Shown here: positions 1-41,494 of the stretch, one piece after another
Numbering within the stretch: position 1 is the first letter of the stretch
How the letters are laid out: each line of letters opens with the position of its first letter
IMG/VR virus record: IMGVR_UViG_3300030104_000420
Span: 1-41,925 of that record
Source: a virus
Length of the DNA stretch: 41,925 nucleotides
Reading direction: 5' to 3' (one strand)
Notes under the pieces: model-generated
Told to the model about the DNA's origin: nothing
The model's input: the letters and a program-made list of their open reading frames with translations, nothing else
Database searches by the model: none
Position numbers and translations under genes: made by a program

Positions 1-1809
1 TTTCATTTTGAATTTAAACAAACTGGAACTGGTACTGCATCAACATCAACAATAGGTGCAGATACAAGTGGACAAACAAATCATTACACTTCTAATGGTT
101 TAGATGCTTATGATTCAAATATGCCTGATAGTCCTGAAAATAATTTTGCCGTTTTAAATCCTTTAGACCAAACAACTGCCACATTGTCAGAAGGTAATTT
201 AAAAATTGTTTCACCCGGTAATATTGGTGCAAATGCTACTTATAAAATGTCTTCTGGAAAATGGTATGCAGAATTTTATATTGATAACTCAGGTTCACGA
301 ACAGTAGATGCTCATGTTGTAGTGGGTGATATAAACTATGTAGCTAACTTTACTGGTACTGTCGGCAGTTTTGTTTATTATAACGCAGCAGGAAATCTTA
401 ATGGAACAACTGGAAAAGCTACATTTACAACAGGAGATATAATAGCTGTGGCTATAGATGCTGACAATGGAACTGTGGCTTTCTACAATGATAACTCATT
501 ACAAGGAACAGTATCAAGTTTGAGTTATGATGCTTATTGTCCATCTATAACAAATTTTAATGGTTCAGGTGCTTTTGCTGTGGCTAACTTTGGTCAAGAT
601 GGAAGTTTTGCAGGTACATTAACTGGTGGTGCTATAGGAAGTGCAACAGATGGAAACGGACATGGCAAATTTAAATATGCACCACCATCAGGCTATCTAG
701 CATTATGTTCAGCTAACCTTGAAGAACCAACTATAGGTCCTAATTCTACTACACAAGCTGATGACCATTTTAATACAGTATTATTCTCAGGTAATGGAAG
801 TGGTGCATCTGTAACAGGTGTTGGATTCCAACCTGATTGGATATGGGCAAAAAACAGAACTAATTCTTATTCACACGAACTTTGGGATTCAAGTAGGGGT
901 GTAAATTCTGATTTACAAAGTGATAATGCAAATCCTGAAATTACAGATGTTAATCGCCTAGTGTCTTTTGATTCAGATGGTTTCTCTTATGGTGCTAGTT
1001 CTAACTTATATGTTAATAGCACTAATTCTGTAGCTTGGAACTGGAAAGCAAATGGTGGCACAACCTCAACTATTTCAGTAGGTGATGTATCAAGTGGTGT
1101 TCCATCTATAGCAAGTACAGTACAAGTAAACGCAACAGCAGGATTTAGTATTGTAACTTTTACTGGAAATGGCTCTGATGATGCTACTATTGGGCATGGA
1201 TTAGGTACTACCCCTGCTATGATTATTACTAAAAATAGAGATGAAACTCAACAATGGAGAGTACACCATAAAGATTTAAGCCAATATTATGTATTATATT
1301 TAGCAGAAGATTATGCACAAATTGCTACAGGTGGTTCTTCAAATGGATATATAAAAACAGTGGGTGATGATACTTATTCTACTCATGCTTCAAATGTAGA
1401 TTCTCTTGGAGTAAATGGTAGTGGTGATAAAATGGTATCTTATTGTTTTGCAGAGATAGAAGGCTACTCAAAGTTTGGCAGTTATACTGGAAATGGCTCT
1501 ACAGATGGTACTTTTGTCTATACTGGATTTAGACCTGCTTGGGTTATGGTAAAAAGAACAGATAGTGCAGATAATTGGTTTATACATGATAGCACAAGAG
1601 ATACAGTTAATCCAAATGCTCATCTTATATATGCAGATATACCTAATAATGAGTATGATGCAACAGGCGATGCTGATAATTCACCACATGATTTTACAAG
1701 TAATGGTTTTAAATTTAGGTCATCAAATGCAAACTGGAACGGAGATGGTGCCGCATACATATACATGGCATTTGCCGAAGCACCTTTTAAATATGCTAAT
1801 GCAAGATAG
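1..1809 (+). CDS. Tail fibre / receptor-binding-type protein, 5' end cut off
   Basis: The frame is open from base 1, so the gene begins before the window; the first internal ATG (121) is probably not the start. The visible 602 residues are rich in Gly, Thr, Asn and Ser, typical of beta-structured fibre proteins. Residues about 50-200 resemble a SPRY/concanavalin-like sandwich. The rest holds three diverged copies of a module with a core like 'TGNGS...GF.P.W...K', starting near bases 778, 1153 and 1477. Such repeats are common in marine phage tail proteins. It is followed after 9 bases by a fibre-assembly-like gene. The exact role, adhesin or other tail spike, is inferred from composition and place. 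Confidence 0.75.
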   Translation, partial: FHFEFKQTGTGTASTSTIGADTSGQTNHYTSNGLDAYDSNMPDSPENNFAVLNPLDQTTATLSEGNLKIVSPGNIGANATYKMSSGKWYAEFYIDNSGSRTVDAHVVVGDINYVANFTGTVGSFVYYNAAGNLNGTTGKATFTTGDIIAVAIDADNGTVAFYNDNSLQGTVSSLSYDAYCPSITNFNGSGAFAVANFGQDGSFAGTLTGGAIGSATDGNGHGKFKYAPPSGYLALCSANLEEPTIGPNSTTQADDHFNTVLFSGNGSGASVTGVGFQPDWIWAKNRTNSYSHELWDSSRGVNSDLQSDNANPEITDVNRLVSFDSDGFSYGASSNLYVNSTNSVAWNWKANGGTTSTISVGDVSSGVPSIASTVQVNATAGFSIVTFTGNGSDDATIGHGLGTTPAMIITKNRDETQQWRVHHKDLSQYYVLYLAEDYAQIATGGSSNGYIKTVGDDTYSTHASNVDSLGVNGSGDKMVSYCFAEIEGYSKFGSYTGNGSTDGTFVYTGFRPAWVMVKRTDSADNWFIHDSTRDTVNPNAHLIYADIPNNEYDATGDADNSPHDFTSNGFKFRSSNANWNGDGAAYIYMAFAEAPFKYANAR

Positions 1810-1818
1810 GAGAAGATA

Positions 1819-2376
1819 GTGGCTTGGAAACATAATGGAAGAACCATACAAATAGGAAAAGCATGGATTGCTGATGATAATACTAAACATCCTAGAGGTT
1901 GGGTAAATTGGAGTGCAGACTTAAAAAAAACTAGAGGTTTAATTTGGGAAGATGACCCAGTTGTAGAGACTTTTGATAATAGATTTTATTCGTCAAAAGA
2001 TGTGGAAAAAAAACTTGCAGATGTAAATGTAGTTGATGAGGATGGCAAAGCTGTAATTGACCATATGACTGGTAAACAAATGGTACAGCTTGGTCTTAAA
2101 TCTATATGGGTAACAAGAACTAAATCAACTGCAAATTATTTACTTCGTAAGTCAGATTGGGAAGTTACAAGAAAAGCAGAAAAAGGTACTGCTATGGCTA
2201 GTGCAACATCTACATACAGAGATAAAGTTAGGACTGCTTGTGATACAATAGAAACTAAAATAAATAATTGCAGTAACTTAACTGAATTTAAAGCATTGTT
2301 TGATGCTCCAGTAGATAGTGATGGTGAGGTAACAGGAGCAAATGCTCCTATCAATGATTTTCCTGACGAGGTGTAA
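1819..2376 (+). CDS. Probable tail-fibre assembly / virion-associated protein
   Basis: 185 aa, GTG start preceded by AGGAGAAG. The middle has 'LLRKSDWEVTRKAEKG' followed by a helical stretch with an alternating charged pattern, resembling the C-terminal region of phage fibre-assembly or DUF4376-type proteins, where a 'R..LL..sDWT' motif precedes a helix. The N-terminal part (Trp-rich, 'WKHNGRTIQIGKAWI') is unfamiliar. Its place directly after the fibre gene, with the next gene starting at the base after its stop codon, supports a role in fibre assembly or chaperoning. The family assignment is tentative. Confidence 0.5.
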   Translation: MAWKHNGRTIQIGKAWIADDNTKHPRGWVNWSADLKKTRGLIWEDDPVVETFDNRFYSSKDVEKKLADVNVVDEDGKAVIDHMTGKQMVQLGLKSIWVTRTKSTANYLLRKSDWEVTRKAEKGTAMASATSTYRDKVRTACDTIETKINNCSNLTEFKALFDAPVDSDGEVTGANAPINDFPDEV

Positions 2377-2571
2377 ATGAAAATGGAACTCAAGCCTGAA
2401 CTACAAGTACAGATGGAATTAGATGCTCACGAGAAGGAGTGTGCTATAAGGTATAAAGCAGTGAATGAAAAACTAGAAGCACTAGATAAAAGAATGTGGC
2501 GAATAGAAGCTATGTCTATGATAGGTACATTAGGCGTGGTAGCTTTAGTAGTCGCAATAGTAATGAAATAA
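2377..2571 (+). CDS. Small coiled-coil protein with C-terminal membrane segment (holin/XhlA-like candidate)
   Basis: 64 aa. The ATG abuts the previous stop codon. Residues 1-45 are charged and helical (heptad-like 'EKLEALDKRMWRIEAM'); the last ~18 residues are hydrophobic ('MIGTLGVVALVVAIVMK') and end with a lysine, giving a tail-anchored layout. Coiled coil plus terminal membrane helix is the layout of XhlA-type lysis accessory proteins, and this is one of few membrane proteins in the window, so it is a candidate lysis or membrane factor. A structural or assembly role is equally possible. Confidence 0.6.
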   Translation: MKMELKPELQVQMELDAHEKECAIRYKAVNEKLEALDKRMWRIEAMSMIGTLGVVALVVAIVMK

Positions 2572-2583
2572 GGATTAAAAATT

Positions 2584-4068
2584 ATGGCAGAAGAAGAAGA
2601 AACTAGTAGTCCTAATAAGCCAATAACTACTGATGAGGAACTTAAGAATGTTGTAGGTGATCTTGCGGCAGGAATTGGAACAAACATACCAAAAGTTGAC
2701 GCTGTTCAAATGGGTGAAACAACACCTAAAACCGTAGCTTCTAATGAGCTTATGGACAAAGATCAAGTTGGAATAAAAGTAGGGGATGTATCTGCGACAG
2801 ATAAAGCAACAACGGAAGATGCGGCAGGAAAATCAGTAACTGCACCCACAAGAGAGATAGACCCCGAAACAGGAGATTATTTAACAACTCCCGGACAGAT
2901 AGACAGCACAACTAAAAACGTAGAGTATGACGCTGAGACGGGAGATGCTAAGATAAAAGATGTCGATAAGATGGATACTGCCCAACTTGATAGAACCACT
3001 ACAGATGCTGACGGTAACGTAGTACCAATAGAATACGTTGATATGACAGGTGTTGAAGGTACAGTAAGCACTAAGTCTATAGCCGATGAAGTATCTGACA
3101 CAGTAGATGAACAGTCTACAGTCAAGTACCAAATAGGTCAACTTATGGAGTCTCTCGAAGAGGGTAAGCCTATGCCAGCGTGGGCATCACCTGCCATTAG
3201 AAAAGTTGGTGCAATCATGCAAGCAAGAGGAATGGGTGGTTCTAGCATGGCTGCCGCAGCGATTACTCAGGCTATGATGGAATCAGGTATACCAATAGCC
3301 ACTGCTGATGCAAACACATATGCAACAATGGAGTTGCAAAACTTAAATAACAAACAGGCAACAACTCTTCAAAATGCAGCCACTTATGCCGCAATGGACA
3401 AAACAAACGTAAACGCAAGATTGCAAGCTGCAATAACTAATGCTCAATCACTACTAGCTGTAGACACAGCAAACCTAACTGCTGAACAATCTACAAATAC
3501 AGTTAACTACAACGCTTTAACAACAGCTTTGTTTAAAGATAGTGCCGCAGAAAATGCACGAAAAGAAATCAATGCAAAGAATGAGTTGCAACTAGAAGAG
3601 TTTTACGTTGAGTTAGGTTCTCAAGTTGAGACAGCAAATGCCAATAGAGAAGTAGCAGTTAACCAATTTAACGCAGGTGAAGAAAATGCGATGGCTCAAT
3701 TTACCAGTAGCCAAGCCGACTCAAGAGATAAATTTGATGCTTCAATGCAATTTGCAATTGATCAATCTAACGTAAATTGGCGTAGACAAATTAACACAGC
3801 CGACACAGCAGTAGCAAATGAAACAAATAGAATTAACGCACAGAATCTGTACAATTCAACTACTACTGCAATGAACGCTTTGTGGCAAAAGTATAGAGAC
3901 AATGCAAGTTGGAACTTTTCAAAGTCAGAATCAGCCGAACAAAGGGCCCATGAGATTGGGGTGATGGCTATGGAATTTGCTAACTCTAAAGAAACATACA
4001 CGCAAGAACAAAAAGATACGATAGGTCTTGCTATAGGAGATTGGCTCGCTACGTGGGCAGCGTCATAA
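2584..4068 (+). CDS. Probable internal virion protein, Ala/Asn/Thr-rich
   Basis: 494 aa, ATG start with AGGA 9 bases upstream. Residues 1-170 are acidic, Thr-rich and probably disordered ('TTDADGNVVPIEYVD'). Residues about 180-225 hold a compact conserved-looking segment ('EEGKPMPAWASPAIRKV' then 'ARGMGGSSMAAAAITQAM'). The remainder is a long Ala/Asn/Gln-rich helical region likely to form coiled coils. No enzyme motif is seen. In podoviruses, runs of such proteins between tail and replication genes are often ejected internal core proteins; that role is inferred from position and composition. An 18-base stretch coding for the EGKPMP segment recurs in the gene at 5312. Confidence 0.6.
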   Translation: MAEEEETSSPNKPITTDEELKNVVGDLAAGIGTNIPKVDAVQMGETTPKTVASNELMDKDQVGIKVGDVSATDKATTEDAAGKSVTAPTREIDPETGDYLTTPGQIDSTTKNVEYDAETGDAKIKDVDKMDTAQLDRTTTDADGNVVPIEYVDMTGVEGTVSTKSIADEVSDTVDEQSTVKYQIGQLMESLEEGKPMPAWASPAIRKVGAIMQARGMGGSSMAAAAITQAMMESGIPIATADANTYATMELQNLNNKQATTLQNAATYAAMDKTNVNARLQAAITNAQSLLAVDTANLTAEQSTNTVNYNALTTALFKDSAAENARKEINAKNELQLEEFYVELGSQVETANANREVAVNQFNAGEENAMAQFTSSQADSRDKFDASMQFAIDQSNVNWRRQINTADTAVANETNRINAQNLYNSTTTAMNALWQKYRDNASWNFSKSESAEQRAHEIGVMAMEFANSKETYTQEQKDTIGLAIGDWLATWAAS

Positions 4069-18381: not shown

Positions 18382-19917
18382 CTAATGGTTAACTTCAGAT
18401 AAGTCAAGCCAATTATTACCTATTTTTAATTCTATTCCTATTGGCATGTCGTATTCTAAGCCATACCTAGCTTTCGAGCCATCAGAAATAGATAACATGG
18501 CTTCAGATAATACCTTGATACACTGATCTTTTTCATCAGGATGTACGTCAAGTACTATTGAATCATGTACTGTGTTGCATATTACTGACTGCATTTTATT
18601 TTTTTGCATCACCTTATCTAGTTCAACTAGTGCTATAGGTAGCAAGTCAGCAGTTGCAAATCCTTGTACGGGGTAGTTACAGATAGCAGTTCTGTTTGTG
18701 GCTGCACCCCAATCTGTCCACTTAGCATCGGGGAAAGAATAGACACGACCTGATGGTAGTTTGATCTCTTTTGTCCTGACTGCTTCTTTCTCTAATTCCT
18801 TGTGCCATTCGGTAACTTTCTCATACTTCTCTTTAAAAGCCGTGTAGTAGGCTTGTTGTGCTGGAGTACCACTGACCCCACCATAGAGAGGTTTGAACGT
18901 GTGTGCCTTTGCATCCTGCCTAGAACACCCTATTATGGATGCAGTGTAGCTATGAACATCTGTTCCCTTAAGAACATCATCATATGCTTGTGGGTCTTTG
19001 GATAAAAAGCCTGCTACCCTAAACTCTAATTGAGAGTAATCACCCTCAAGTATATAGCCACCATCAAACCTACTTTCTACTATCTTACGTATAGCAAAGG
19101 TAGAACCACGTGGCATGTTTTGAAAGTTAGGATTACGACTAGATAATCTACCCGTTGCAGTAACACATTGCATAAATTCAGGATGTACAAAGTTATCATC
19201 ATCTACGTTATTCTTCATACCCTCAACAAAAGTAGATAGGTAGGTACGAATAGCATTGTATCTAGAGTAGGCTACACAAAACTCACGTGCTTCACCACTT
19301 AGTTCGGTTGATCTATCTTCTAGAGTTACCTTGTCTGTCTTAAATCCTGCAGATGCAGTATCTTTTGGATTACGAGGTACAATCTTAAAGCCTGCCACCT
19401 CATTAGTGTCCATGTATCTGATGCCTTTACCTTTACATGGCTTGCATATCCGTAATGCTTTACTTGGCTCACCATTTTTGTTGACAAGCCTGACACGACC
19501 ATGACCTAAACAACCTGCACATTGTTGACCTACAGTTTTGTACACAATGTCTGTCATGTTACGTACATTACGAATGAAATCATTCTTTCTCATACGAGTA
19601 CGTAGCTTTGGTTTAATTGTGTTACCCCTCATTTCGTGACCCAGATTAAATGTCATAGACCAGAGAGGTTTATCCTTTACCTTACGTGAGTACAACAAAA
19701 CACTACGATCATCAGGACTAGATAGATTGATTGGTGTATCCCCCATTGCTTCTTTAGCCATAGTCTGTAGTTTGTTTTCTAGATAGAGTAGTTCTGTATT
19801 ATATTCTTTCTCTATCTCATCTAAGGTATCTAAGTTTATTTTAAGTCCGTTCATCTCAATACGAGTCAGGACTTTTGTCATTTCAAGCGAAAGCTTTAGT
19901 GTCGGTACTAATGTCAT
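18382..19917 (-). CDS. Family A DNA polymerase, polymerase domain with DnaJ-type zinc module
   Basis: 511 aa from ATG 19917, chosen because GGAG lies 9 bases upstream; the frame continues to a TTG at 19953, and ATG 19881 just after the exonuclease stop is another option. Palm motifs: TATGRLSS (253-260), motif A DYSQLEFR with D293, motif B R333/K337/F341/Y345-G, motif C VHDS with H451-D452. Residues 133-164 contain two CxxCxGxG repeats (C133/C136, C158/C161), the DnaJ cysteine-rich pattern, as I recall for the polymerase of SAR116 phage HMO-2011. There is no exonuclease domain; it is the overlapping separate gene upstream. Replicates the phage genome. Confidence 0.92.
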   Translation of the reverse strand: MTLVPTLKLSLEMTKVLTRIEMNGLKINLDTLDEIEKEYNTELLYLENKLQTMAKEAMGDTPINLSSPDDRSVLLYSRKVKDKPLWSMTFNLGHEMRGNTIKPKLRTRMRKNDFIRNVRNMTDIVYKTVGQQCAGCLGHGRVRLVNKNGEPSKALRICKPCKGKGIRYMDTNEVAGFKIVPRNPKDTASAGFKTDKVTLEDRSTELSGEAREFCVAYSRYNAIRTYLSTFVEGMKNNVDDDNFVHPEFMQCVTATGRLSSRNPNFQNMPRGSTFAIRKIVESRFDGGYILEGDYSQLEFRVAGFLSKDPQAYDDVLKGTDVHSYTASIIGCSRQDAKAHTFKPLYGGVSGTPAQQAYYTAFKEKYEKVTEWHKELEKEAVRTKEIKLPSGRVYSFPDAKWTDWGAATNRTAICNYPVQGFATADLLPIALVELDKVMQKNKMQSVICNTVHDSIVLDVHPDEKDQCIKVLSEAMLSISDGSKARYGLEYDMPIGIELKIGNNWLDLSEVNH

Positions 19918-20479
19918 TAAATAGTTCTCCAAATGTTGTGCCAAAGGCTTCAAGTTGTTTTACTGCCACTTCTTCTGTAGCGATTACGTCTGCTATACCA
20001 TACTCTTGTACAATCTCATAAGGTATATCATAAAATGTTTTACCATCTTTTAGAAAAGGTGCAACTAAATCTTTTTCTTTTTGTGTAACACCATATCGTT
20101 TTGCAAGAGAGTCAAGACTAAGTGACCACCTCTTTGCTTTAGCTAAGATATATTCAGCTACCATTGTATCGTACACATGACGATCATAGGTAAAGCCACA
20201 TGCTCTTATCCATGTAAGATCAAACTTAAGATTCTGCCCAACAAGTACATCGGCACTATCCAAAGTATTCTGCATTGTTTCAAACCAACCATCTTCTACA
20301 AATGCTCGATTGTCTGAGTGAGATATAAAATCGTAGCCTACCTCATCTTCTCCTAGCCACTTGTACCCGATTGATACAAGAGTATTACCAAAGTAAGGCA
20401 GGGCAGTAGTGCCGCCTGACTCCTTTGTCTTATGTGTTGTCTCAACATCAAGTGTCAAGACGTTTAGTTTTTCTGCCAT
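19883..20479 (-). CDS. DnaQ/Pol A-type 3'-5' exonuclease (proofreading domain as separate gene)
   Basis: 198 aa from ATG 20479, which has a near-perfect AGGAGAAACA before it; the frame extends further upstream into the HNH gene. Exo I: LTLDVETT (D11, E13). Exo II: GQNLKFDLTW (D87). Exo III: YGIAD (D164), the YxxxD form. These are the metal ligands of DEDDy exonucleases found at the N-terminus of T7/Pol I polymerases. Here the domain stands alone and ends 34 bases inside the polymerase gene, in another frame, so the ancestral polymerase appears split. It probably still works with the polymerase domain as a two-subunit enzyme. Confidence 0.87.
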   Translation of the reverse strand: MAEKLNVLTLDVETTHKTKESGGTTALPYFGNTLVSIGYKWLGEDEVGYDFISHSDNRAFVEDGWFETMQNTLDSADVLVGQNLKFDLTWIRACGFTYDRHVYDTMVAEYILAKAKRWSLSLDSLAKRYGVTQKEKDLVAPFLKDGKTFYDIPYEIVQEYGIADVIATEEVAVKQLEAFGTTFGELFNDISTDTKAFA

Positions 20480-20756
20480 TGTTTCTCCTATCTGTATGTA
20501 TTGAATGACAATTAGCACAGAGTATTCTGCACTTTCTTACTTCTTTAATTAAATTCTTTATGCTATGTAGCACCATGTGGCTGACTTGTTTAGTCTTGCC
20601 ACCTAGATGGTCAAACTGTAAGGCAAGAGCATTTTTTCTGTATCCACATATGTCACAACCACATCTCATCTTAATGTAGTTGAGCCAACGTCTTCTACGT
20701 TTTGCTCTTGCAGTAATTTTAGCATTTCTATTAATAGTACACACCCCTTTGCACAT
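20448..20756 (-). CDS. HNH endonuclease, likely free-standing homing type
   Basis: 102 aa, very basic N-terminus ('RAKRRRRWLNYIKMRCG'). Zinc/HNH core: CDICG (C34, C37), then 'LQFDHLGGK' with the catalytic-site D49-H50, then 'CRILCANCHSIHT' (C80, C83, H84). This is the compact HNH layout of phage homing endonucleases. No ribosome site at ATG 20756, which lies 26 bases inside the helicase gene; a GTG at 20744 is an alternative. It overlaps both helicase (upstream) and exonuclease (downstream), an insertion exactly at the replication gene junctions, where homing endonucleases often sit. Confidence 0.85.
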   Translation of the reverse strand: MCKGVCTINRNAKITARAKRRRRWLNYIKMRCGCDICGYRKNALALQFDHLGGKTKQVSHMVLHSIKNLIKEVRKCRILCANCHSIHTDRRNNGRKTKRLDT

Positions 20757-30496: not shown

Positions 30497-30523
30497 GACA
30501 TTTGTGCATAAATTTTTTTTTAT

Positions 30524-30552
30524 TTGACATATATATGTTATATCTGTATAAT
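30524..30552 (+). promoter_or_regulatory. Consensus rightward promoter of the late (head) genes
   Basis: TTGACA (30524-30529), 17-base spacer, TATAAT (30547-30552): a perfect sigma70 consensus with ideal spacing, about 100 bases upstream of the first head-module gene. The best promoter in the window; probably read by host RNA polymerase. Confidence 0.88.
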
Positions 30553-30862: not shown

Positions 30863-31229
30863 AATATCACCCCAACAGGAGCAATTCCTAACCAATCTAT
30901 TCGATAATGGTGGAAATGTTACTGACGCAGCGTTAGCAGCGGGTTATTCTAAGGGTAGTGTCACGTGGTTAAAGAACAGTTTAGCCGATGAAATAATCAA
31001 TCGCACAAAGAACGTACTGTCTATGCACGCTTTTAAGGCTGCTACACGCCTAGTAACGACAATAGACAACCCCGTACCCGAAAGAGGAGACGACCTACGC
31101 TTCAGGGCTGCAGAATCGCTTTTAAACAGGGTTGGACTGGGTAAACAAGAAACAACCAACGTAAATGTACAGGCAGTTCACGGTATTGTGTTGCTGCCAC
31201 CAAAGAAAGAGGTAGTAATCGATGGCTAA
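30825..31229 (+). CDS. terS: Terminase small subunit
   Basis: 134 aa, GTG start inside the preceding gene. Residues 14-45 'SPQQEQFLTNLFDNGGN...DAALAAGYSKGSV' are the HTH region typical of TerS ('q..F...l...GN...AA..AGYS'), followed by a helical oligomerisation region and a segment 'LRFRAAESLLNRVGLG' seen in many small terminases. Recognises viral DNA and loads TerL. Located 0.9 kb upstream of TerL with three small genes between. Confidence 0.8.
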   Translation: MTNLLPQTKNSREISPQQEQFLTNLFDNGGNVTDAALAAGYSKGSVTWLKNSLADEIINRTKNVLSMHAFKAATRLVTTIDNPVPERGDDLRFRAAESLLNRVGLGKQETTNVNVQAVHGIVLLPPKKEVVIDG

Positions 31230-31491
31230 CAAAGTATATTCAAACGATCCCCAAGCATCAAGGTATCAGAAACCAAGAAAAGCAACGGTGTTAGAGAAGT
31301 CAATGGAGAAAAAGAAAAGAAAAGCTGATCACTATAGAATGAGAGAAATAAATAAAGATGCCTATGATCCCACAGAGCCAGTTCCAAGTGACATTTTCAA
31401 GGATGCTGAATCAAAACGACTGTACGATAGGTTAGGCAGACAAGAAAAAATGTATGGAAGATACCAAAGAAAAGATGAACGTGAAGCTTAA
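31222..31491 (+). CDS. Small basic protein with YSNDPQASRYQ N-terminus, 89 aa
   Basis: ATG within the last codons of terS, AGAGGTAGTAATCG before it. Residues 5-20 ('VYSNDPQASRYQKPRK') recur almost unchanged at the start of the 96-aa gene at 31874. The remainder is highly charged and helical ('EKSMEKKKRKADHYRMRE', 'KRLYDRLGRQEKMYGRYQ'). Basic; possibly DNA- or capsid-associated. Function unknown. Confidence 0.6.
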   Translation: MANKVYSNDPQASRYQKPRKATVLEKSMEKKKRKADHYRMREINKDAYDPTEPVPSDIFKDAESKRLYDRLGRQEKMYGRYQRKDEREA

Positions 31492-31873: not shown

Positions 31874-32164
31874 ATGGCTAAAAAAAACAAAATGTATTCA
31901 AATGATCCTCAAGCATCGAGATATCAACAACCACGTAAAGCAGGCAGTGGGGATGCTTTAATGAACACAGCAGGAGTATTGCTAGGGGCAGGTGGAGCAT
32001 ACGTAGGTAAAACTTACTATGATTTATTTAAAACTCAAGCTGAACTTATGAAAGGTGGTAAGGGGCATAAGGTTAAGAGTAAACCTAGAATGGGAGTCAA
32101 CCCTAAAGACCTTTCAATAAAAGGTGGTTCAGGACCTAAAGGTAAACGCCTTAAAAGAATATAG
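31874..32164 (+). CDS. Small protein with YSNDPQASRYQ N-terminus and hydrophobic segment, 96 aa
   Basis: ATG with AAGAGGTAATTATAG upstream. Residues 7-22 ('MYSNDPQASRYQQPRKA') match the 89-aa protein. A Gly/Ala-rich weakly hydrophobic stretch follows ('NTAGVLLGAGGAYVGKTYY'), then a basic Gly/Lys tail ('KGKRLKRI'). The stop is immediately followed by the TerL start. May be a minor virion or packaging protein; unproven. Confidence 0.6.
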   Translation: MAKKNKMYSNDPQASRYQQPRKAGSGDALMNTAGVLLGAGGAYVGKTYYDLFKTQAELMKGGKGHKVKSKPRMGVNPKDLSIKGGSGPKGKRLKRI

Positions 32165-33850
32165 ATGACCGATGCACCAAAGAGGGGTCGCCCTAAGAAA
32201 GACCCCGAAGCACCAAAGCAAAGATATTTTCTGTCCAGAGCCGAACAAGCCAGACGACAGACACAAAAGAGGTTACGTGATGCTAAGAAACGTGCAGACA
32301 AAGTAACCAAAGTAGCAGAAAGTAAAAGAAGATATGCCAGAAAGCTTGAAGAGAAAGTTGGTAAAGTTGAGAAAGCTCTTAAGGGAGATGCAACTACCGT
32401 TATCGATACAGGGGAGTTGGCAAGCCTTCCTCCACCTGTGCAAGAAATTGTCGGCAATCGGGAAATCGTGTTTCAACCGAATGAAGGACCTCAAGAAGAG
32501 TTTTTGTCATCGGGTGAAAGAGATGTTCTCTATGGAGGTGCTGCTGGTGGGGGAAAATCTTTCGCCTTGTTGGCAGACCCCCTTCGTTATTGCACTAATC
32601 CTAATCATAGGGGTCTTCTTCTTAGGCGTACTCTTGACGAACTTACTGAGTTAATAGACAAATCCCGTCAACTGTACCCCAAAGCGTTTCCCGGTGCAAA
32701 GTTTAGGGAGTCAAAGTCAACGTGGCACTTCCCATCTGGAGCAACAATCTGGTTTACCTATCTAGACAAAGACAAAGATGTAACCCGATTTCAAGGACAA
32801 GCTTTCAACTGGATAGGGATAGACGAAATAACCCAATACCCAACACCCTACGTGTGGGATTACCTGAGATCAAGACTGAGAAGCACCGATCCCGAACTAC
32901 AACAAAGTTTGTATATGAGGTGTACAGCGAATCCGGGTGGAATCGGTGGGTGGTGGATTAAGAAGATGTACATTGACGTAGGTGAACACAACAAACCGTT
33001 CCCTGCAGCAGATGTCGAAACAGGTAGACCGTTCACGTGGCCGCAAGGACACGAAAAGGAAGGTCAACCTTTGTTCTATCGTAGGTTCATTCCTGCGAGA
33101 CTAACAGACAACCCGTTCCTTATGGCAGATGGACAATATGAAGCGATGCTTCGTTCACTACCAGAGATAGAACGGAAAAGATTACTTGACGGGGATTGGG
33201 ATGTAGCCGATGGTGCAGCCTTCCCAGAATTTAGCAGGGTTAAACATGTTGTGGAGAGCTTCCAATTGCCAACTAACTGGCCCCGTATCAGGGCGGCTGA
33301 CTACGGGTATGCGAGTCCTTCTTGCGTTCTTTGGGGTGCTATTGATTGGGATAATAATATCTGGATTTATCGGGAGTTATACGTAAAACAGTTGACAGCA
33401 GAACAATTAGCCGATAGAATACTAGAAGCAGAGCAATTAGACCCTCTACCCCACTACACAGTACTTGACTCCTCTTGTTGGAATAAGACAGGGTTTGGTC
33501 CTTCCATAGCAGAAACAATGATGAGATCAGGAGTCCGTTGGACACCGTCTGATCGTAACAGAATACAAGGTAAGATGGAAATACATCGTAGGCTTGCAGA
33601 TGACCCAAGAACAAATGAACCGAGATTACGAGTGTTTTCTAATTGTAGCAACACTATCAAGCAATTGGCAGCAATTCCTCTTTCCAAGACTAACAGCGAA
33701 GACGTAGATACTAAAGCAGAAGATCACGCATACGATGCACTGCGATATATGTTGATGACAAGAATGACAGGGTATGCAGCAATTCACGAAACGCTTAATG
33801 GCATTAAGGCTCAAGTCTATCAGGTACAAAATGAAACATTTGGATATTAA
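32165..33850 (+). CDS. terL: Terminase large subunit (packaging ATPase/nuclease)
   Basis: 561 aa. Walker A 'GGAAGGGKS' (124-132), Walker B 'WIGIDE' (216-221), coupling motif region 'CTANPGG' (253-259). The RNase H-like nuclease domain has D379 ('RAADYGYAS'), D435 ('TVLDSS') and D520/D524 ('AEDHAYDALRY'). Residues 1-75 are an extra basic arm: an AT-hook-like 'KRGRPKK' followed by a Lys/Arg-rich coiled coil, beyond the usual ATPase start. Pumps DNA into the prohead and cuts it to length. ATG directly follows the previous stop. Confidence 0.95.
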   Translation: MTDAPKRGRPKKDPEAPKQRYFLSRAEQARRQTQKRLRDAKKRADKVTKVAESKRRYARKLEEKVGKVEKALKGDATTVIDTGELASLPPPVQEIVGNREIVFQPNEGPQEEFLSSGERDVLYGGAAGGGKSFALLADPLRYCTNPNHRGLLLRRTLDELTELIDKSRQLYPKAFPGAKFRESKSTWHFPSGATIWFTYLDKDKDVTRFQGQAFNWIGIDEITQYPTPYVWDYLRSRLRSTDPELQQSLYMRCTANPGGIGGWWIKKMYIDVGEHNKPFPAADVETGRPFTWPQGHEKEGQPLFYRRFIPARLTDNPFLMADGQYEAMLRSLPEIERKRLLDGDWDVADGAAFPEFSRVKHVVESFQLPTNWPRIRAADYGYASPSCVLWGAIDWDNNIWIYRELYVKQLTAEQLADRILEAEQLDPLPHYTVLDSSCWNKTGFGPSIAETMMRSGVRWTPSDRNRIQGKMEIHRRLADDPRTNEPRLRVFSNCSNTIKQLAAIPLSKTNSEDVDTKAEDHAYDALRYMLMTRMTGYAAIHETLNGIKAQVYQVQNETFGY

Positions 33851-33854
33851 ATAA

Positions 33855-35537
33855 ATGGCAGAAATAACAAAAGATTCCACCTTAAGAGAAGTTTTAACTT
33901 CTTATGCAAACAAAAATAAAAGAGGTTCTAGTTTTGTCACAGAAGGCGTAAAGCTATTTAAGGATATTGCTGATAAAAAAGGATCGGCTCTTCAATTATT
34001 TACTCCTGATAAAAACGGAAAAACATTACTTAATAGAACACTGACTAGTATAGATGTAGATTCTGTAGGACTAAAACAACCTATGCAAAACTTGCGTCAA
34101 GTTGGTCTATCGTTAAAGTCTATAATACCAGAGTCTAGTGATCTGTATAATTTTTTACCTGATAAAGAAAGTAACAGCGAAAAAAACTTAAAGATATTTG
34201 GAATTGAAGAGCCTGCTAAAGCTAAATCTTTAGTATCTCTTAAAGTAAATTCTGAAACAATGAACGAATTGTTTTCTAAGATTCAAGAGTTTAAGTTAGA
34301 CCCTAAGACAGAAGCCATAGCTGATGCTATGTTATTTAATTTAAATACAGGATTAAGACCTAACGCTGCAGCAGGATTAAAAGTGGGAGGAGTTTACTTT
34401 CCTGAAAGTGGTGCTATATACATTGATGCTGAAACTAAAGGAGCAAAAGGAAGAAGAATAAATGTTCCTTTAAGTCCTCTTGCAGATTCCATTCTTCAAA
34501 AGCGTATCGCTGATGGCAAGGTAGTCAACGATCAATTTTTTGTAAAGCCTGATGGTAAAGTTGTAACATCAAGCGATATGACTAATTTATTAAAGAAGAT
34601 AAAGATAAAAGATATCTTGTTTGATGCTTCTACAAATAAATATTATGATAGCCTAGCTCCAGATGGTAAAGATGTTCCCGGAAAAAGAGGATCAAGTCTT
34701 TTTAGAAATATACACACAAAGATAGGTCAAAAATCAGGAGTTGCTTTTGAGAGAATAGCCTATCTACAAGGTAGAAGTCTTGTATCTGCTGCACAAGGAT
34801 CAGTCGGAGAAGTTGTAACTTACGCTACAGACTTTCCCGGAGACATTGACCCAAAAGGTTTTGATGCACAGCAAGCAAGTAAAATAAGTTCAATCTTTCA
34901 GCCTTCTTTAGAAAAATATAACTACGATATATCAGGAAAAACTGCTAGAATAACAAAAGCAACAAAAGGATTTGAAAATTATTTTGATGCACCTGTTCTC
35001 GATCAATCTGCTACTATTGAAGGTACATTTACAGATGTAACCGACAAAAAAGCAATGAGTTTTGAAGATTTTAGCGAAGAAGAAATAGCTGAGTTAAATA
35101 AAGCTGGCATTAAAGATAATAGACCACCAGAAAAAAAGGCTTTAACAAGAATACAAAAGTTAAAACAGGGTGTGACTAAGGCAGCCACATCTAAAACAGG
35201 AAAAGCCGTTCTTACTGCTGCTGGGATAGCAGCATCGAATATCGCCAAGTCATCCCCTCTCGTTGCAGGTGGATTAGAATACCAAATGTCTAAAGACGAA
35301 GGCAAAGGTGAATTTGAATCTGGAGTAAGAGGACTTGCAGAAGCAGCTAATCCTCTACCAATTGGAATTAGAGAATTTGAACAAGCTGGAGAATTTGTAG
35401 CTGAAAAAGCTAGAGATGATTCTTCAATAAGTGATAGTGGGTCTTTCTTAGATGCACTTACAGGCTCGTTAACAGGGCAATCATTGAATCTATCTGGAGG
35501 TTATGCTTCTGGGGGATTTGTAAACAAGGCAGAATAG
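33855..35537 (+). CDS. Tyrosine-recombinase-fold protein in the head module, with Gly-rich tail
   Basis: 560 aa. Residues ~155-325 align by eye with the catalytic domain of XerD/phage integrases: 'LFNLNTGLRPNAAAGLKVG' (box I, R168), 'ETKGAKGRRINVPLSPLA' (beta-hairpin Lys, K195/K198), 'SLFRNIHTKIGQKSG' (box II, R284), 'IAYLQGRSL' (the LLGHs box, with R307 instead of His/Trp) and 'VVTYATDF' (Y323). Box II His is Ser281, and Y323 lies 16, not 9, residues past the last box, so catalysis is doubtful. Residues 440-475 are Ala-rich and hydrophobic; the end 'GGYASGGFVNKAE' resembles virion proteins. It sits between TerL and portal genes, so it may be structural. Could be an active integrase. Confidence 0.6.
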   Translation: MAEITKDSTLREVLTSYANKNKRGSSFVTEGVKLFKDIADKKGSALQLFTPDKNGKTLLNRTLTSIDVDSVGLKQPMQNLRQVGLSLKSIIPESSDLYNFLPDKESNSEKNLKIFGIEEPAKAKSLVSLKVNSETMNELFSKIQEFKLDPKTEAIADAMLFNLNTGLRPNAAAGLKVGGVYFPESGAIYIDAETKGAKGRRINVPLSPLADSILQKRIADGKVVNDQFFVKPDGKVVTSSDMTNLLKKIKIKDILFDASTNKYYDSLAPDGKDVPGKRGSSLFRNIHTKIGQKSGVAFERIAYLQGRSLVSAAQGSVGEVVTYATDFPGDIDPKGFDAQQASKISSIFQPSLEKYNYDISGKTARITKATKGFENYFDAPVLDQSATIEGTFTDVTDKKAMSFEDFSEEEIAELNKAGIKDNRPPEKKALTRIQKLKQGVTKAATSKTGKAVLTAAGIAASNIAKSSPLVAGGLEYQMSKDEGKGEFESGVRGLAEAANPLPIGIREFEQAGEFVAEKARDDSSISDSGSFLDALTGSLTGQSLNLSGGYASGGFVNKAE

Positions 35538-35546
35538 GAGACAACT

Positions 35547-35762
35547 ATGCCAGACAATAACTACAACTACGGACCTTCATATGTAATGAACTCCGATAAA
35601 ACAGCTTACAACGCACCAGATGCACCTTTAACTCGTGAAGGTAAAGACTTTGACACAAAGATGGGTAACTACGATTTGCAATCTGATATGCCAAAGAAAC
35701 AGTCTAAACCAACTGTTGAAGCTTCTTTCAACACAATGGCTGACAATAAAAACTACTTCTAA
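35547..35762 (+). CDS. Small hypothetical (probably structural) protein, 71 aa
   Basis: ATG with AGGAGACAACT upstream. Polar, Asn/Asp/Tyr/Lys-rich ('DNNYNYGPSYVMNSDKTAY'), predicted largely disordered, ending 'NTMADNKNYF'. Thirteen bases before the portal gene. No motif; possibly a minor head protein. Confidence 0.55.
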   Translation: MPDNNYNYGPSYVMNSDKTAYNAPDAPLTREGKDFDTKMGNYDLQSDMPKKQSKPTVEASFNTMADNKNYF

Positions 35763-35775: not shown

Positions 35776-37890
35776 ATGTCTGATAATTTTCTTCAACCTG
35801 AAGATGATACTGGCGTACCTATAGCTAATCCATCCGAGCAAATGCCCGGACTAGCAGGCTACGTAAAAAAGAAGTTTGAGGATTCTGAAAATGGGAGACG
35901 TACCCATGAACACAGATGGCTACAATCTTTTAAAAACTTCAGGGGTATCTACGATTCAACGACACAGTATCGTGATTCTGAACGTTCCAAAGTTTTCATT
36001 AAAATAACCAAAACTAAGGTTCTTGCAGCGTATGGGCAAATAGTAGATATTCTGTTTGCTAATAAAAAGTTCCCAGTGGTTGTTGAACCTACTCCTATGC
36101 CAGAAGGTATAGAAGAGTTTGCTCACATGAAGACACCTCTTGATGAAGATCAACCAGTAGACCCATATGGGTTTGAAGGAGATGGAAGAGAAGTTCCACC
36201 CGGAGCATTACAGGCTGATCAACCTCACAAACTTGGAAGTTATGATAAAGAATTTCCAGACATGTTAGTTAAAGGTCCTGCTAAAATGGCAGAACCTCAA
36301 GTTAAACCTGCGCAGAAGATGGCACTACGGATGGAGAAGTGTATTCACGATCAGCTTCTTGATACCAATGCAGTCAGTGTGTTTAGGCAAGCTATTTTTG
36401 AAGCATCTTTGTTAGGTACGGGAATCATTAAAGGACCATTTAATTTCTACAAAAAAGTTCACAAGTGGGAAAGAGATGAAAACGGGCAAAGAAACTATGT
36501 TCCCTACGAAAAAGTTGTACCTCGCATAGAATATGTATCTGTGTGGGATTTTCACCCTGATCCATCGGCAACAAGTATCGAAGACTGTGAGTACGTAATA
36601 CAAAGACATCGTATGAACCGTCAACAACTTCGTGGTTTGATACAAAGACCGTACTTTGACGCAGAAGCAATTGAAGAGTGTCTTTCTAAAGGTGCAAATT
36701 ATGAAGATAAATATTATGAAGACACTATTCGTGAAGATGAAACTGAGCCACATGTTTTAGAAAACAGATTTGAAGTTCTTGAATACTGGGGAGTTATCGA
36801 CAAAAAGTATGCTAACGAAGTGGGCATGGATGGCGTTAATGAAATGTCAGAATTTGATCAGGTACAAGTAAATGTGTGGGTGTGTGGCAACATGGTTATT
36901 CGTTGTGTAGCAAATCCGTTTACTCCTGCTAGAATACCTTTTCAAGCATTTCCATTTGAAATCAATCCTTATCAATTGTGGGGAGTTGGTGTTGCAGAGA
37001 ACATGGAAGATGCACAGCTACTTATGAATGGTCACGTAAGAATGGCTATTGATAACTTAGCACTTGCAGGTAATCTTGTATTTGATGTAGACGAAGCAAG
37101 CTTAGTTCCCGGACAGAACATGGACATATTTCCCGGAAAAATATTCCGAAGACAGTCGGGCGTAACAGGAACTGCAATCAATGGTCTTAAGTTTCCAAAC
37201 ACTGCAGGCGAGAATATACAGATGTATCAGATATCTCGACAACTTGCAGATGAAGAGACGGGCATACCATCAATTATGCACGGACAAACTGGAGTAACAG
37301 GAACAGGTAGAACTGCAGCAGGTTTATCAATGTTAATGGGTTCTGCAGGTCTTGCCATGAAGACAGTTATAAAAAATATAGATGATAACTTATTAAAACC
37401 AATTGGTGAAGCGTATTTTCAGTGGAACATGCAGTTTAATGAAAATGTGGATGACATAGAGGGTGATCTGGAGATTAAACCTCGTGGGGTAGCAGCAGTA
37501 ATGCAAAAAGAAGTGAGAAGTCAGCGTTTGACATCTTTACTACAGACGGTAGCAAACCCTATGCTTGCACCATTTATTAAAATACCGAATTTAATGAAAG
37601 AATTAGCAATAGCTCAAGATATTGATCCTGATAGCTTAGTTAATGATGCAAATGAAGCTCAAATATATGCAGAGATGCTGAAAGGAATGATGCCAGATGC
37701 TCAACAAGGAACAGGCGAGGGTGCTAACCCCAATAATCAACAGCAAGGAATGGGTCAACCTAGTGGAGTATCTCAACGACCTGAAGGAACTGACAATCAA
37801 GGGTCTGGTAACGGCACAATCGGAGTCGGAGCTACGCCAACTGCAGGGGAAGCTGGCTTTACTGGAAATGCTCCTCAACTTGAAGAATAG
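35776..37890 (+). CDS. Portal protein (head-tail connector)
   Basis: 704 aa, in the podovirus portal size range. Central features typical of portal proteins: 'HRWLQSFKNFRGIYDS' near the start, 'FRQAIFEASLLGTGIIKGPF', 'YVSVWDFHPDPSATSIEDC' and 'YQLWGVGVAENMEDAQLLMN', then the crown-region helix 'GLSMLMGSAGLAMKTVIKN'. Forms the dodecameric ring through which TerL packs DNA. The last ~70 residues are a Gln/Gly/Asn/Pro-rich low-complexity tail, and that stretch carries a second gene in another frame (37697-37918), which may explain its composition. Followed by scaffold and capsid genes as expected. Confidence 0.9.
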   Translation: MSDNFLQPEDDTGVPIANPSEQMPGLAGYVKKKFEDSENGRRTHEHRWLQSFKNFRGIYDSTTQYRDSERSKVFIKITKTKVLAAYGQIVDILFANKKFPVVVEPTPMPEGIEEFAHMKTPLDEDQPVDPYGFEGDGREVPPGALQADQPHKLGSYDKEFPDMLVKGPAKMAEPQVKPAQKMALRMEKCIHDQLLDTNAVSVFRQAIFEASLLGTGIIKGPFNFYKKVHKWERDENGQRNYVPYEKVVPRIEYVSVWDFHPDPSATSIEDCEYVIQRHRMNRQQLRGLIQRPYFDAEAIEECLSKGANYEDKYYEDTIREDETEPHVLENRFEVLEYWGVIDKKYANEVGMDGVNEMSEFDQVQVNVWVCGNMVIRCVANPFTPARIPFQAFPFEINPYQLWGVGVAENMEDAQLLMNGHVRMAIDNLALAGNLVFDVDEASLVPGQNMDIFPGKIFRRQSGVTGTAINGLKFPNTAGENIQMYQISRQLADEETGIPSIMHGQTGVTGTGRTAAGLSMLMGSAGLAMKTVIKNIDDNLLKPIGEAYFQWNMQFNENVDDIEGDLEIKPRGVAAVMQKEVRSQRLTSLLQTVANPMLAPFIKIPNLMKELAIAQDIDPDSLVNDANEAQIYAEMLKGMMPDAQQGTGEGANPNNQQQGMGQPSGVSQRPEGTDNQGSGNGTIGVGATPTAGEAGFTGNAPQLEE

Positions 37891-37918
37891 TCATGGAGAC
37901 GTTATAAAGAATGTCTAG
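37697..37918 (+). CDS. 73-aa helical protein nested out of frame in the portal gene's end
   Basis: ATG 37697 with AAAGGAATGATGCCAG upstream; runs 194 bases inside the portal gene, passes its stop and ends at TAG 37918, overlapping the next ATG (37911) by 8 bases. The protein is ordered-looking: 'ARVLTPIINSKEWVNLVEYL' then 'LRQLQGKLALLEMLLNLKN'. The 'spEW..l..yl' plus 'L..lQG.l..l..LlnL' pattern is one I know from small proteins beside portal genes in other phages. That conservation-like signal makes it more credible than the low-complexity portal frame it overlaps. Possible head-assembly factor. Confidence 0.62.
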   Translation: MLNKEQARVLTPIINSKEWVNLVEYLNDLKELTIKGLVTAQSESELRQLQGKLALLEMLLNLKNSHGDVIKNV

Positions 37919-40508
37919 TATATTTGACACTTTAGATTTTGCTAGTGATTTTTTTGGGCAACCCGATAGAAATAAACAAAAAGTATCACGAAGAGAATAC
38001 AGAACGGGATACATTGATTATTATGATCAATCACTAGATGCTACAGGCATTAAAGCAGATTTGTCAAGAAGGTCGCCTACAGATAGTAAAGAAGAAGAAA
38101 GTAAACAAGTTAGTGTAAATCAAGTTGGTGTTACTGATAGTGGGGATGATGATCCTATGTCAATATCCAATTTAACAAATTTATCGGCAGGTTTTGATAG
38201 TAATTTAAATAGCTCATCTTCTATATTAGATTTAGAAAATAATTTTATAGATTACAACACATCCTTACAAAATGCAGGTTTTAAAGATAGAAGTGACAGT
38301 TTCCTAAATAAAAACTTTGGAATATCACTTGCTGCCGTTCCTCAAAGTGGAAAAGAAGCAAAAGAAGATGTAAAATCACTAGCTTCTAAAAGAGGATTAA
38401 CTTCCTTACTTAAATCGGGTGCTAAAAGAGGTTTAGCATATCTGGGAATGAGTCCAATTATAACAGGTGGAGCAACAGGATTTGTTACAGGTAAAACATT
38501 AAGTGATCCACTTGGAAACCCATCATACAGACCAGATCATTCAATTTTAGGCACAGTTATGGACATAAACTATTCCATACAAAGTAACAATATTAGTCAA
38601 AGTATGGCTGCAATAAACGCAAATAATGTAACAGGATATAGAGGTGCTAAATCACCTACTGGATTTTTTGGTTATATAGGGGGTCAACTTGTAAGCAGGG
38701 CCCCGAATGGTAAATCCTATACTGGTGTAAATGCTGAGTATGGAAGAATGGCTGAAGCTTTTAGTAAAGGCTATGCTCCTTTAGGGTATAATGTTGACAG
38801 TGAGTCAGGACAACACTCTATTGCATCTAGGACAGGAGCATTTAGGGGTTACGATGAAAGAGGATATCACGTTAGTGGAAATCAATTTTCAAAAGCAGGA
38901 TCAATGTCAGATGTCAGAGTTACAGCAGAAACATATTTTGGAAAAGGTGCAGGTAGAGAAGAAGATAAAAAGGTTATAGAAGCTCTTCAAAGAGTAAGAA
39001 GTCAATACAATTTCTTTGGTCGTCTTAAAGATACTGTAAAGAATCCAGTAACTCTTTCTCAAGTATTAGCCGAGAAAGCCAGCACTGGATCATATGACAA
39101 CAAGTATACTAAAGGGTCTGATTTAGGAGATGCTGCAGATTCAGTAGGATCAACAGGAGATTTAGGTGGAGCTACGAGTGCAGGATATTCAACTCCTTCT
39201 GCTGTAGCATCAGCTTCTAGTTTTGATGATGGTGGAGAACATGACCATTCTCCTAGTGGTGACTCTGACAGTGGTCTGGGAGATCAGGGTGGAGTAGGAG
39301 GAGGTTATACTGCCAAAGGTGGATTTATTGGAAGTAAAAAGAACTTTGCACTAGGTGGCAGAGGAGATGCCGAACCTGCAGGATTTATTGGAGGACCCCC
39401 AGAGAAATTTAACAAACAAACAACTATCGCAGATGATATACCCCTAACAGTAAAAGATGGTACATTTGTAATTAATGCTCCTGCTGTAGAAAATGAAGGA
39501 TCATTAAGTATACAGAAAATGTTAGCTGAAGGCTACGAAAAAGCCATGACTAGGGATATAGGGGTTGACAAAAATTTTAGAATTGGTAAAATACCAAGTA
39601 AAGAAGAATTAGATATACAAATCTCTCGTGGTGAAGTAGTAGTTCCACCACATGTAGCAAAAGTTATAGGCTACGACAAACTAGAAAAAATCAACAACAA
39701 AGGTAAGCGTGAAGTAGAACGCAGACAAAAAGCTGGTGATCAGGAGAAGGTACAAGCTGGTCAAGGTTTTGCCGCAAAAGGTGGTGTATTTACCATAGAC
39801 AAGGTTGCCGATTCCTACAAAGAAAAATACGCAACTCCACAACTAGCAAGACAAGCAACTATGAAACTTGCTAAAAAAATGCCACTAGCTGATGCTTTAG
39901 CCATACTTATATGGGGGGAAGCTAAAAATTTAGGGGATGAAGGACTTGAGGGTGCGGCTCACGTTTTAATAAATAGAGCAAACGCAGAAAAGTATCCGGG
40001 TTTTGGTAAAAGCATATATGAAGAATTGACAAGAACCTATGAAGGTGCAAAGGGCGAAAGAATTTTTCAGTTTAATGCACTTGAACCTACAAAATTTAGA
40101 GAGACTATTAAAAAATTTAAAAAAGATAATGATACGTATCTTAGAGTAAGAAACATTGCTGAAGAAGTTATGGCAGGTGCTAGAAAAGATTTTACAAACA
40201 ACGCTTTGTTTTTTTATAATCCCTTTACTTCAGGAAGTGATTGGTACAAAGAACAAGTAAGCAAAAAACACTTTAAAGAAACATATAGAACAGTAAATCC
40301 TAAAAACAAAAAAGCTTTACATGTGTATCACGTACCATCTGATTTTAAGATGGATACAATTTTAGGTGCAGAAAAAATTACTCCTGAACAATTTAAACCT
40401 TCAACCCCGATACCTAACGAAGTAACATTACCTATGAAACGACCTAAAGAGGTAGAAGATCGTAGTGATGATGGAGGTTTTTTAGATTATCTTAAAAAAT
40501 TATTTTAA
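37911..40508 (+). CDS. Large virion protein with C-terminal SleB-type cell-wall hydrolase
   Basis: 865 aa, GGAG 14 bases before ATG. Residues 1-150 acidic/Ser-rich; a weakly hydrophobic segment near 165-200 ('SGAKRGLAYLGMSPIITGG'); Gly-rich linkers (~430-500) with 'YTAKGGFIGS' and later 'FAAKGGVFTI'. Residues ~655-800 match the Hydrolase_2/SleB fold: 'LAILIWGEAKNLG' with catalytic-type E670, 'AAHVLINRANAEKYPGF', 'FQFNAL' and 'NNALFFYNPF'. Such domains cut peptidoglycan. As a virion protein it would open the cell wall at DNA entry; it is also the only evident lysin-type domain in the window, so a lysis role is possible. Confidence 0.8.
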   Translation: MSSIFDTLDFASDFFGQPDRNKQKVSRREYRTGYIDYYDQSLDATGIKADLSRRSPTDSKEEESKQVSVNQVGVTDSGDDDPMSISNLTNLSAGFDSNLNSSSSILDLENNFIDYNTSLQNAGFKDRSDSFLNKNFGISLAAVPQSGKEAKEDVKSLASKRGLTSLLKSGAKRGLAYLGMSPIITGGATGFVTGKTLSDPLGNPSYRPDHSILGTVMDINYSIQSNNISQSMAAINANNVTGYRGAKSPTGFFGYIGGQLVSRAPNGKSYTGVNAEYGRMAEAFSKGYAPLGYNVDSESGQHSIASRTGAFRGYDERGYHVSGNQFSKAGSMSDVRVTAETYFGKGAGREEDKKVIEALQRVRSQYNFFGRLKDTVKNPVTLSQVLAEKASTGSYDNKYTKGSDLGDAADSVGSTGDLGGATSAGYSTPSAVASASSFDDGGEHDHSPSGDSDSGLGDQGGVGGGYTAKGGFIGSKKNFALGGRGDAEPAGFIGGPPEKFNKQTTIADDIPLTVKDGTFVINAPAVENEGSLSIQKMLAEGYEKAMTRDIGVDKNFRIGKIPSKEELDIQISRGEVVVPPHVAKVIGYDKLEKINNKGKREVERRQKAGDQEKVQAGQGFAAKGGVFTIDKVADSYKEKYATPQLARQATMKLAKKMPLADALAILIWGEAKNLGDEGLEGAAHVLINRANAEKYPGFGKSIYEELTRTYEGAKGERIFQFNALEPTKFRETIKKFKKDNDTYLRVRNIAEEVMAGARKDFTNNALFFYNPFTSGSDWYKEQVSKKHFKETYRTVNPKNKKALHVYHVPSDFKMDTILGAEKITPEQFKPSTPIPNEVTLPMKRPKEVEDRSDDGGFLDYLKKLF

Positions 40509-40600: not shown

Positions 40601-41494
40601 ATGGCAACACAAGTAAAAGGTGCGAGAGCAAACAAACCAAATGACTCCTTTGGAGTAGTTAATAATCCAAATCTTTACAAAAACAAATATCGTGAAGAGG
40701 TGGATAAAGAAGACGATAATGAAGAAGAAGTACAAGCTCAAGACCCCACTGAAGAGGTGGCTACTCAAGAGGAAAGTACAAGTTTCGTAGAAACAAAACA
40801 ACCAGAAGGACACGATTACAAAAAACGTTATGATGATTTAAAAAAACATTATGATGCTAAACTTGATGAGTTTAAAAGTGAACGTGAACAAATGGTTAGT
40901 GAGATAAAAGCAATTAAAGATAACATGCAAAGTTTACCACAAGGAACTGTTGCTCCAAAATCTGCAGAAGAACTTCAAGAGTTTAAAGAAAAATATCCTG
41001 ATGTCTTCGAGGTGGTGGAAACTGTTTCTGGTTTAAAAACTGAACAGACGGTTGCTAGTCTACGAGAAGAAATTCAAGTCGTTAAAGAGAGGGAAAAGAC
41101 TCTTAAGAAAGAGAAAGCATACGAAGAATTACTTCGTTTACACCCTGATTTTGGTGAGTTAAAAAGCAATGAAAAGTTTATTGCATGGCTCGATGATCAA
41201 CCTGAACAACTTAGTAATGGTATTTATAAAAACAATACTGATGCTACGTGGGCAAGCAAGATCGTATCTCTTTACAAAGCAGAGATGGGCATATCTACTA
41301 AAAAACCTACTAAATCTAATCGAACAGATGCGGCAGCTACAGTTACTAAAACTCAACCTAAAGAAGTTGCTACAACTGATCAAAAAGGGAAGATTTGGAA
41401 AATGTCCGACATCGCCAAGCTGAAAGCGTGGGAGTTTGAAAAACTTGAAAAAGAAATAGACTTAGCACGAGCAGAAGGGCGAATAACTCAATAA
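40601..41494 (+). CDS. Capsid scaffolding protein
   Basis: 297 aa, ATG with ATGAGGTAAATACA upstream. Acidic and helical: acidic N-terminal segment (residues ~30-65), a coiled coil ('YKKRYDDLKKHYDAKLDEF', 'QVVKEREKTLKKEKAYEEL'), a compact helical domain ('LHPDFGELKSNEKFIAWLD'), and a C-terminal 'WKMSDIAKLKAWEFEKLE' helix, the likely capsid-binding end, with the basic/acidic pattern of podovirus scaffolds. The order scaffold then major capsid protein is standard. Guides prohead assembly and is lost before packaging ends. Confidence 0.85.
   Translation: MATQVKGARANKPNDSFGVVNNPNLYKNKYREEVDKEDDNEEEVQAQDPTEEVATQEESTSFVETKQPEGHDYKKRYDDLKKHYDAKLDEFKSEREQMVSEIKAIKDNMQSLPQGTVAPKSAEELQEFKEKYPDVFEVVETVSGLKTEQTVASLREEIQVVKEREKTLKKEKAYEELLRLHPDFGELKSNEKFIAWLDDQPEQLSNGIYKNNTDATWASKIVSLYKAEMGISTKKPTKSNRTDAAATVTKTQPKEVATTDQKGKIWKMSDIAKLKAWEFEKLEKEIDLARAEGRITQ

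Follow-up and report, generated by a model that had tools for sequence, protein, structure and literature searches.

A divergent protein with a predicted tyrosine-recombinase fold in the head operon of uncultured HMO-2011-like phages

Integrases serving lysogeny are normally encoded beside attP and regulatory genes, often by tRNA-derived sequence. Phages of the HMO-2011 type belong to the most abundant viruses in the sea. In this group, HMO-2011, CRP-1, CRP-2 and CRP-3 carry tyrosine-recombinase integrases near their replication genes; for CRP-3, integration has been demonstrated (PMC6918029). The tyrosine-recombinase family also includes the baculovirus protein VLF-1, which takes part in capsid and nucleocapsid assembly and in DNA packaging (PMC3649998, PMC11654684, PMC10657434). 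VLF-1 is a structural component; its deletion disables capsid formation, and mutation of its Tyr yields non-infectious virus (PMC3649998). Another tyrosine recombinase, gp143 of phiCbK, is found in phages without known lysogeny and has been proposed as a resolver of replicative intermediates or multimers (PMC3556154).

In this study, we analyzed a protein, here called INTL, which is encoded between the terminase and portal genes of an uncultured phage. With Tn1549 Int, XerH, Cre and lambda Int (PF00589, PHROG 216, PHROG 1) it has in common the two-domain fold, here predicted, and the same order of box I Arg, hairpin Lys, box II Arg and conserved Tyr. Unlike these proteins, INTL lacks the box II His, bears Arg in place of the box III His/Trp and has its Tyr at +16, and it further differs from them by a variable C-terminal part of ~180 aa, a conserved end peptide and its place in a head operon. 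The integrases of HMO-2011, CRP-1, CRP-2 and CRP-3 likewise have no box II His; apart from their location they differ from INTL by GH in box III, a Tyr at +9 and the lack of a tail. phiCbK gp143 consists, unlike INTL, of a 208-aa catalytic core only, was described in connection with DNA replication and has neither linker nor tail peptide. By use, VLF-1 would be the nearest analogue, as a tyrosine recombinase in particle assembly and packaging, although it belongs to an insect virus of another realm and was demonstrated in virions, whereas INTL is a putative particle protein. No description of the INTL family was found in the open-licence literature.

From an uncultured virus record of 47,083 bases, the window, i.e., the whole stretch of DNA that was analyzed, covers 41,925. 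The open reading frame of INTL given in a first-pass annotation was reproduced exactly, starting with ATG at 33855 and ending with a stop codon at 35535-35537 (Table 1). Judged from its gene content, the carrier belongs to the podophage relatives of marine HMO-2011-type phages: it has homologues of their genes for TerL, portal, primase, helicase and DNA polymerase, the portal protein shows 52% identity with that of Pelagibacter phage HTVC115P, and TerL shows up to 56% identity with those of HMO-2011-type isolates. The gene following that of the 297-aa protein occupies the position of the HMO-2011 capsid gene and was assigned by this position.

Table 1. Position of INTL, its parts and the neighboring genes in the window
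Feature	Position	Strand	Evidence
TerL, terminase large subunit	32165..33850	+	PHROG 979 E=1.3e-60; Pfam Terminase_6N; 4 nt upstream of INTL
INTL, divergent protein of predicted tyrosine-recombinase fold, 560 aa	33855..35537	+	ORF; PHROG 216 E=8.1e-8; fold matches; 62 distinct homologues
INTL residues 1-125, helical N-terminal domain, by its position the putative counterpart of the tyrosine-recombinase core-binding domain	33855..34229	+	Confident AF2 helices
INTL residues 126-356, catalytic-type domain	34230..34922	+	Conservation in 62 homologues; codon variation; model
INTL catalytic-type codons R168; K195; K198; R284	34356-34358; 34437-34439; 34446-34448; 34704-34706	+	
INTL catalytic-type codons H287; R307; Y323	34713-34715; 34773-34775; 34821-34823	+	
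INTL residues 383-545, hypervariable, mostly disordered linker	35001..35489	+	pLDDT mostly <50; 20% pairwise identity; dN/dS
INTL residues 546-560, C-terminal peptide SGGYASGGFVNKAE region, invariant Phe555	35490..35534	+	Motif count in homologues
71-aa protein of unknown function, always the downstream neighbor of INTL	35547..35762	+	Synteny, all loci with downstream neighbor
Portal protein, SU10 type	35776..37890	+	PF23899 E=2.7e-28; PHROG 332 E=2.7e-76
Post-portal protein, 865 aa, Hydrolase_2 (cell-wall hydrolase) domain, GGF[IL] motifs resembling the INTL tail	37911..40508	+	PF07486 E=9.2e-7
297-aa protein, 3' of the post-portal gene	40601..41494		

Two further features of the window were observed. 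The DNA polymerase, encoded by one gene in HMO-2011, is split into overlapping ORFs (18382-19953 and 19883-20518, minus strand), which both match PHROG 17; the split at 18382-20518 may be a frameshift, a sequencing error or genuine. Between TerS and TerL, two small genes on the plus strand (31222-31491 and 31874-32164) encode proteins with nearly the same start (YSNDPQASRYQ.PRKA), as if they were paralogous.

The first-pass annotation had proposed a tyrosine-recombinase fold for INTL, and both profile searches and structure models bore this out. In profile searches, INTL matched the integrase families PHROG 216 (E=8.1e-8) and PHROG 1 (E=8.5e-7) and, under the curated cut-off, Pfam PF00589 (E=4.8e-4); among 34 family members, 32 matched PHROG 216 and 22 matched PF00589. 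NCBIfam contained no useful family. In the PDB, no match was obtained by sequence profile with the full alignment, and the core found only XerH (E=0.06). The sequence-profile similarity spans only residues ~134-252, from box I to the Lys hairpin, and boxes II and III and the Tyr were assigned by their order, their invariance and fold matches of low identity (10-18%). The full-length AlphaFold2 model is confident over residues 1-382, and the core model reached a mean pLDDT of 85.8 and a pTM of 0.67; residues 310-330 are of low confidence, and two models disagree there. All 19 PDB fold matches of the core model with E<=1e-3 are tyrosine recombinases, led by Tn1549 Int (2.5e-6) and XerH (2.8e-6) and including XerA, lambda Int and Cre. 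The significant PDB matches of the full-length model are likewise all tyrosine recombinases, and in a library of viral models integrases rank top. The Foldseek alignments comprise 330-390 columns and cover both the N-terminal and the catalytic domain. By its predicted fold, INTL thus genuinely belongs to the tyrosine recombinases. It is better described as a divergent member of the superfamily than as a canonical integrase because neither the box II His nor the box III His/Trp was found; its invariant Tyr lies at +16, in a part modelled with low confidence. Descent from the integrases of its own phage group was considered and rejected, the profile-profile match being weak (probability <3%) and confined to box I and the hairpin.

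For the analysis of catalytic residues, the window was compared with 62 distinct homologues encoded by uncultured viruses (63 rows); many of these homologues stem from short contigs, and as related sequences they are not independent observations. All residues and motifs named in the first-pass annotation (GLRP with R168, K195/K198, R284, YLQGRS with R307, and Y323) were found at their places. Of the five residues it had put forward for a conservation check, four are invariant wherever covered, with R168 present in 63/63 rows, R284 and R307 in 62/62 each and Y323 in 60/60, the three rows without a letter at Y323 being two truncated contigs and the homologue L059. The fifth, K195, is kept in 57/63 rows, and it is K198 that is found in 63/63. 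K195 aligns with what we take to be the catalytic-Lys column of XerH. N285 and H287 are also present in 62/62 rows. Among the eight Arg of the catalytic domain only R168, R284 and R307 are invariant, and Y323 is one of its two invariant Tyr. Codons vary at these positions (five for Arg168, six for Arg284, both for Tyr323). Five randomly chosen domain columns would all be invariant with a probability of ~1e-4, which is a rough guide only, as the sequences are related. In L059 (INTL gene at 1479-3443), a 21-residue in-frame deletion relative to L042 removes the equivalent of Tyr323; this loss of the Tyr stretch (AYLQGRGAVGEVDR) may be a natural deletion or an assembly error.

The spacing had also been described correctly: Y323 lies 16 residues past R307, and Ser316 occupies the +9 position, the standard distance of the Tyr past box III. 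S316 varies among the homologues, and Y323 is therefore the candidate nucleophile, located in a region with a pLDDT of 55-71. The absence of the box II His and the replacement of the box III His/Trp by Arg, both noted before, hold throughout the family: the former position (S281, three residues before R284) is taken by A, S, P, Q, G or T, and the latter is Arg (R307) in 62/62 rows. The invariant H287, the sole His of the catalytic domain, is located three residues, or a single helical turn, beyond R284 and might stand in for the box II His. The box I Arg, the hairpin Lys and the box II Arg of canonical tyrosine recombinases are all present.

Given these deviations, INTL could have lost catalysis and retain the recombinase fold solely to bind DNA as a structural, packaging or ejection protein. 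The missing box II His and box III His/Trp, the Tyr at +16 instead of +9, the loss of the Tyr stretch in L059 and the location in a head operon would all agree with such a protein. We nevertheless regard it as unlikely, because the three box Arg, the hairpin Lys and the Tyr are invariant among the 62 homologues despite the variation of their codons. Furthermore, the ordinary integrases of the HMO-2011 group read xDLRR at box II and thus also lack the His, including that of the integrating phage CRP-3 (PMC6918029), so that loss of this residue alone does not preclude activity. The first-pass annotation had offered two options, a structural reuse of the fold and an integrase carried in the particle; both may apply, and the invariant Tyr and Arg residues favor retained chemistry in INTL.

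The C-terminal part of INTL evolves in a different way. The model shows residues 383-560 as mostly disordered, and the mean pairwise identity is 20% for residues 383-545 vs. 60% for the catalytic domain. Relative to the window, dN/dS was 0.42-0.76 for the C-terminal part and 0.09-0.14 for residues 1-382, with synonymous sites near saturation in several pairs. A hydrophobic segment had been suggested here in the first-pass annotation. The part is mildly hydrophobic, with a maximal 19-residue Kyte-Doolittle mean of 1.13 and values >=1.6 in only 5/55 homologues, and a strong transmembrane segment found no support. In all 55 complete homologues, the motif [GNS]F[ILVA] occurs within the last 12 residues; its Phe is invariant, with both Phe codons in use. 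The same kind of ending was found in 17/25 post-portal proteins and in 1/295 of all remaining genes together, counts to which no probability is attached since sequences within a family are related. Small GGF-like motifs occur in other phage proteins as well. Some phages show the likeness directly; in L033, INTL ends with SSGGFIEKRE, and AAKGGFINK closes the post-portal protein. In HTVC115P, which has no INTL, the post-portal protein has a related but different ending, AKGGLLSADKYKI. A conserved end of this kind, carried on a rapidly changing tether, resembles a peptide for docking or for cargo loading.

This C-terminal part bears on a second alternative, according to which INTL is an active Xer/Cre-like resolvase that is expressed from the head operon and resolves late concatemers or multimers inside the cell, outside the particle. 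The retained catalytic residues, XerH and Cre among the closest solved folds and the late-operon position beside TerL would be expected of such an enzyme, and a comparable role has been proposed for phiCbK gp143 (PMC3556154). We consider it distinctly unlikely, as it leaves both the hypervariable linker and the invariant end peptide common with the post-portal protein unexplained.

The genomic place of INTL is fixed. TerL is located directly 5' of it in 58/58 loci with a detected neighbor, at a distance of -4 to +6 nt, and a gene of ~72 aa follows directly 3' in 52/52 loci, with the portal gene next where the contig reaches. When the near-identical L001 is left out, identity to the window is ~74-96% for TerL, 71-97% for the portal protein and 39-82% for INTL; with the same gene order throughout, the position has thus been kept over considerable divergence. 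No separate integrase was detected in 20 records (19 related ones and that of the window), which may be incomplete, and the PF00589 matches arising in these INTL-carrying records fall on INTL itself. In HMO-2011, CRP-3 and CRP-212, TerL adjoins the portal gene without an INTL-type gene between them; HTVC115P, HTVC033P, HTVC103P and ctYwJ313 have only small genes there, and in phiM6 and RHph_N3_19, which are more distant, other genes occupy this place. Six records of cultured relatives yielded no match in a profile search run without a positive control, and tblastn with three family members, two of them distant, gave none of note in 50,697 phage records. Where cultured HMO-2011-type relatives possess an ordinary integrase, its gene lies near the replication genes, in agreement with PMC9038755.

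In the window, the intergenic gaps beside INTL are 4 nt (TerL) and 9 nt (71-aa gene), leaving no room for attP, and neither tRNA nor Rfam matches were obtained. No relatives of INTL came up when 84,980 prokaryote genomes, which may not include the host, were scanned twice with pattern seeds. The least probable reading, an ordinary lysogeny integrase that happens to lie in the late operon, could appeal to the lack of any other tyrosine recombinase among those seen in these phages and to HMO-2011-type relatives that can be temperate (PMC6918029, PMC9038755), but an integrase with attP was rejected as the main reading because of the lack of attP room, of tRNA and of prophage copies in the genomes scanned, and the integrase of cultured relatives sits elsewhere and has no such tail. 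The first-pass annotation had also argued against an ordinary integrase, and the fixed position in the head operon, the narrow gaps and the absence of a second integrase and of bacterial copies in the material searched agree with it.

With respect to possible DNA substrates, no Cre/Xer-type inverted-repeat target site was found in the window except an AT-rich palindrome at 30522-30543. Direct terminal repeats were absent from the record of the window and from a 54-kb relative. Two long records run collinearly yet have their breaks at different places, which would be weakly compatible with circular or permuted genomes that need a resolution or circularization step.

The explanation we prefer, and to which we give about an even chance, is that a marine HMO-2011-like podophage lineage has recruited a tyrosine recombinase, INTL, into its head/packaging operon, where INTL acts on phage DNA. 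INTL would be co-expressed with TerL and the portal protein, and its linker and tail peptide, the latter serving as the same signal as that of the post-portal protein, would tether the recombinase domain to the prohead, the packaging vertex or the ejection machinery. It could then be packaged with the phage DNA or act on it during packaging or cell entry, and strand exchange via the Tyr would resolve multimers or circularize the genome. INTL would thereby be used as VLF-1 is in baculoviruses and not as a lysogeny integrase. A virion or head-assembly role is indicated indirectly by the invariant TerL/portal synteny and by the tail peptide common with the post-portal protein, and INTL is probably associated with the particle. 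That an active INTL inside the particle, docked by its tail at the portal or packaging vertex, couples genome resolution or circularization to packaging or injection is possible, though we hold it to be rather doubtful. If true, a tailed-phage family with an active in-particle recombinase would represent a bacteriophage counterpart of VLF-1. A recombinase in a packaging operon suggests that DNA recombination may be directly coupled to packaging or entry, in a convergent parallel to VLF-1. Catalysis and particle targeting of INTL can both be tested directly, given its invariant residues and tail peptide.

The comparison of homologous loci also provided observations on single proteins. The post-portal protein has a modular build, with GGF[IL] often at its end and different C-terminal parts added in other phages. 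Among seven versions checked, only that of the window contains the Hydrolase_2 domain. Some INTL homologues (L029, L033, L034, L045, L046, L050, L051, L059 and L061-L063) have an additional N-terminal stretch of ~100-150 residues of unknown function.
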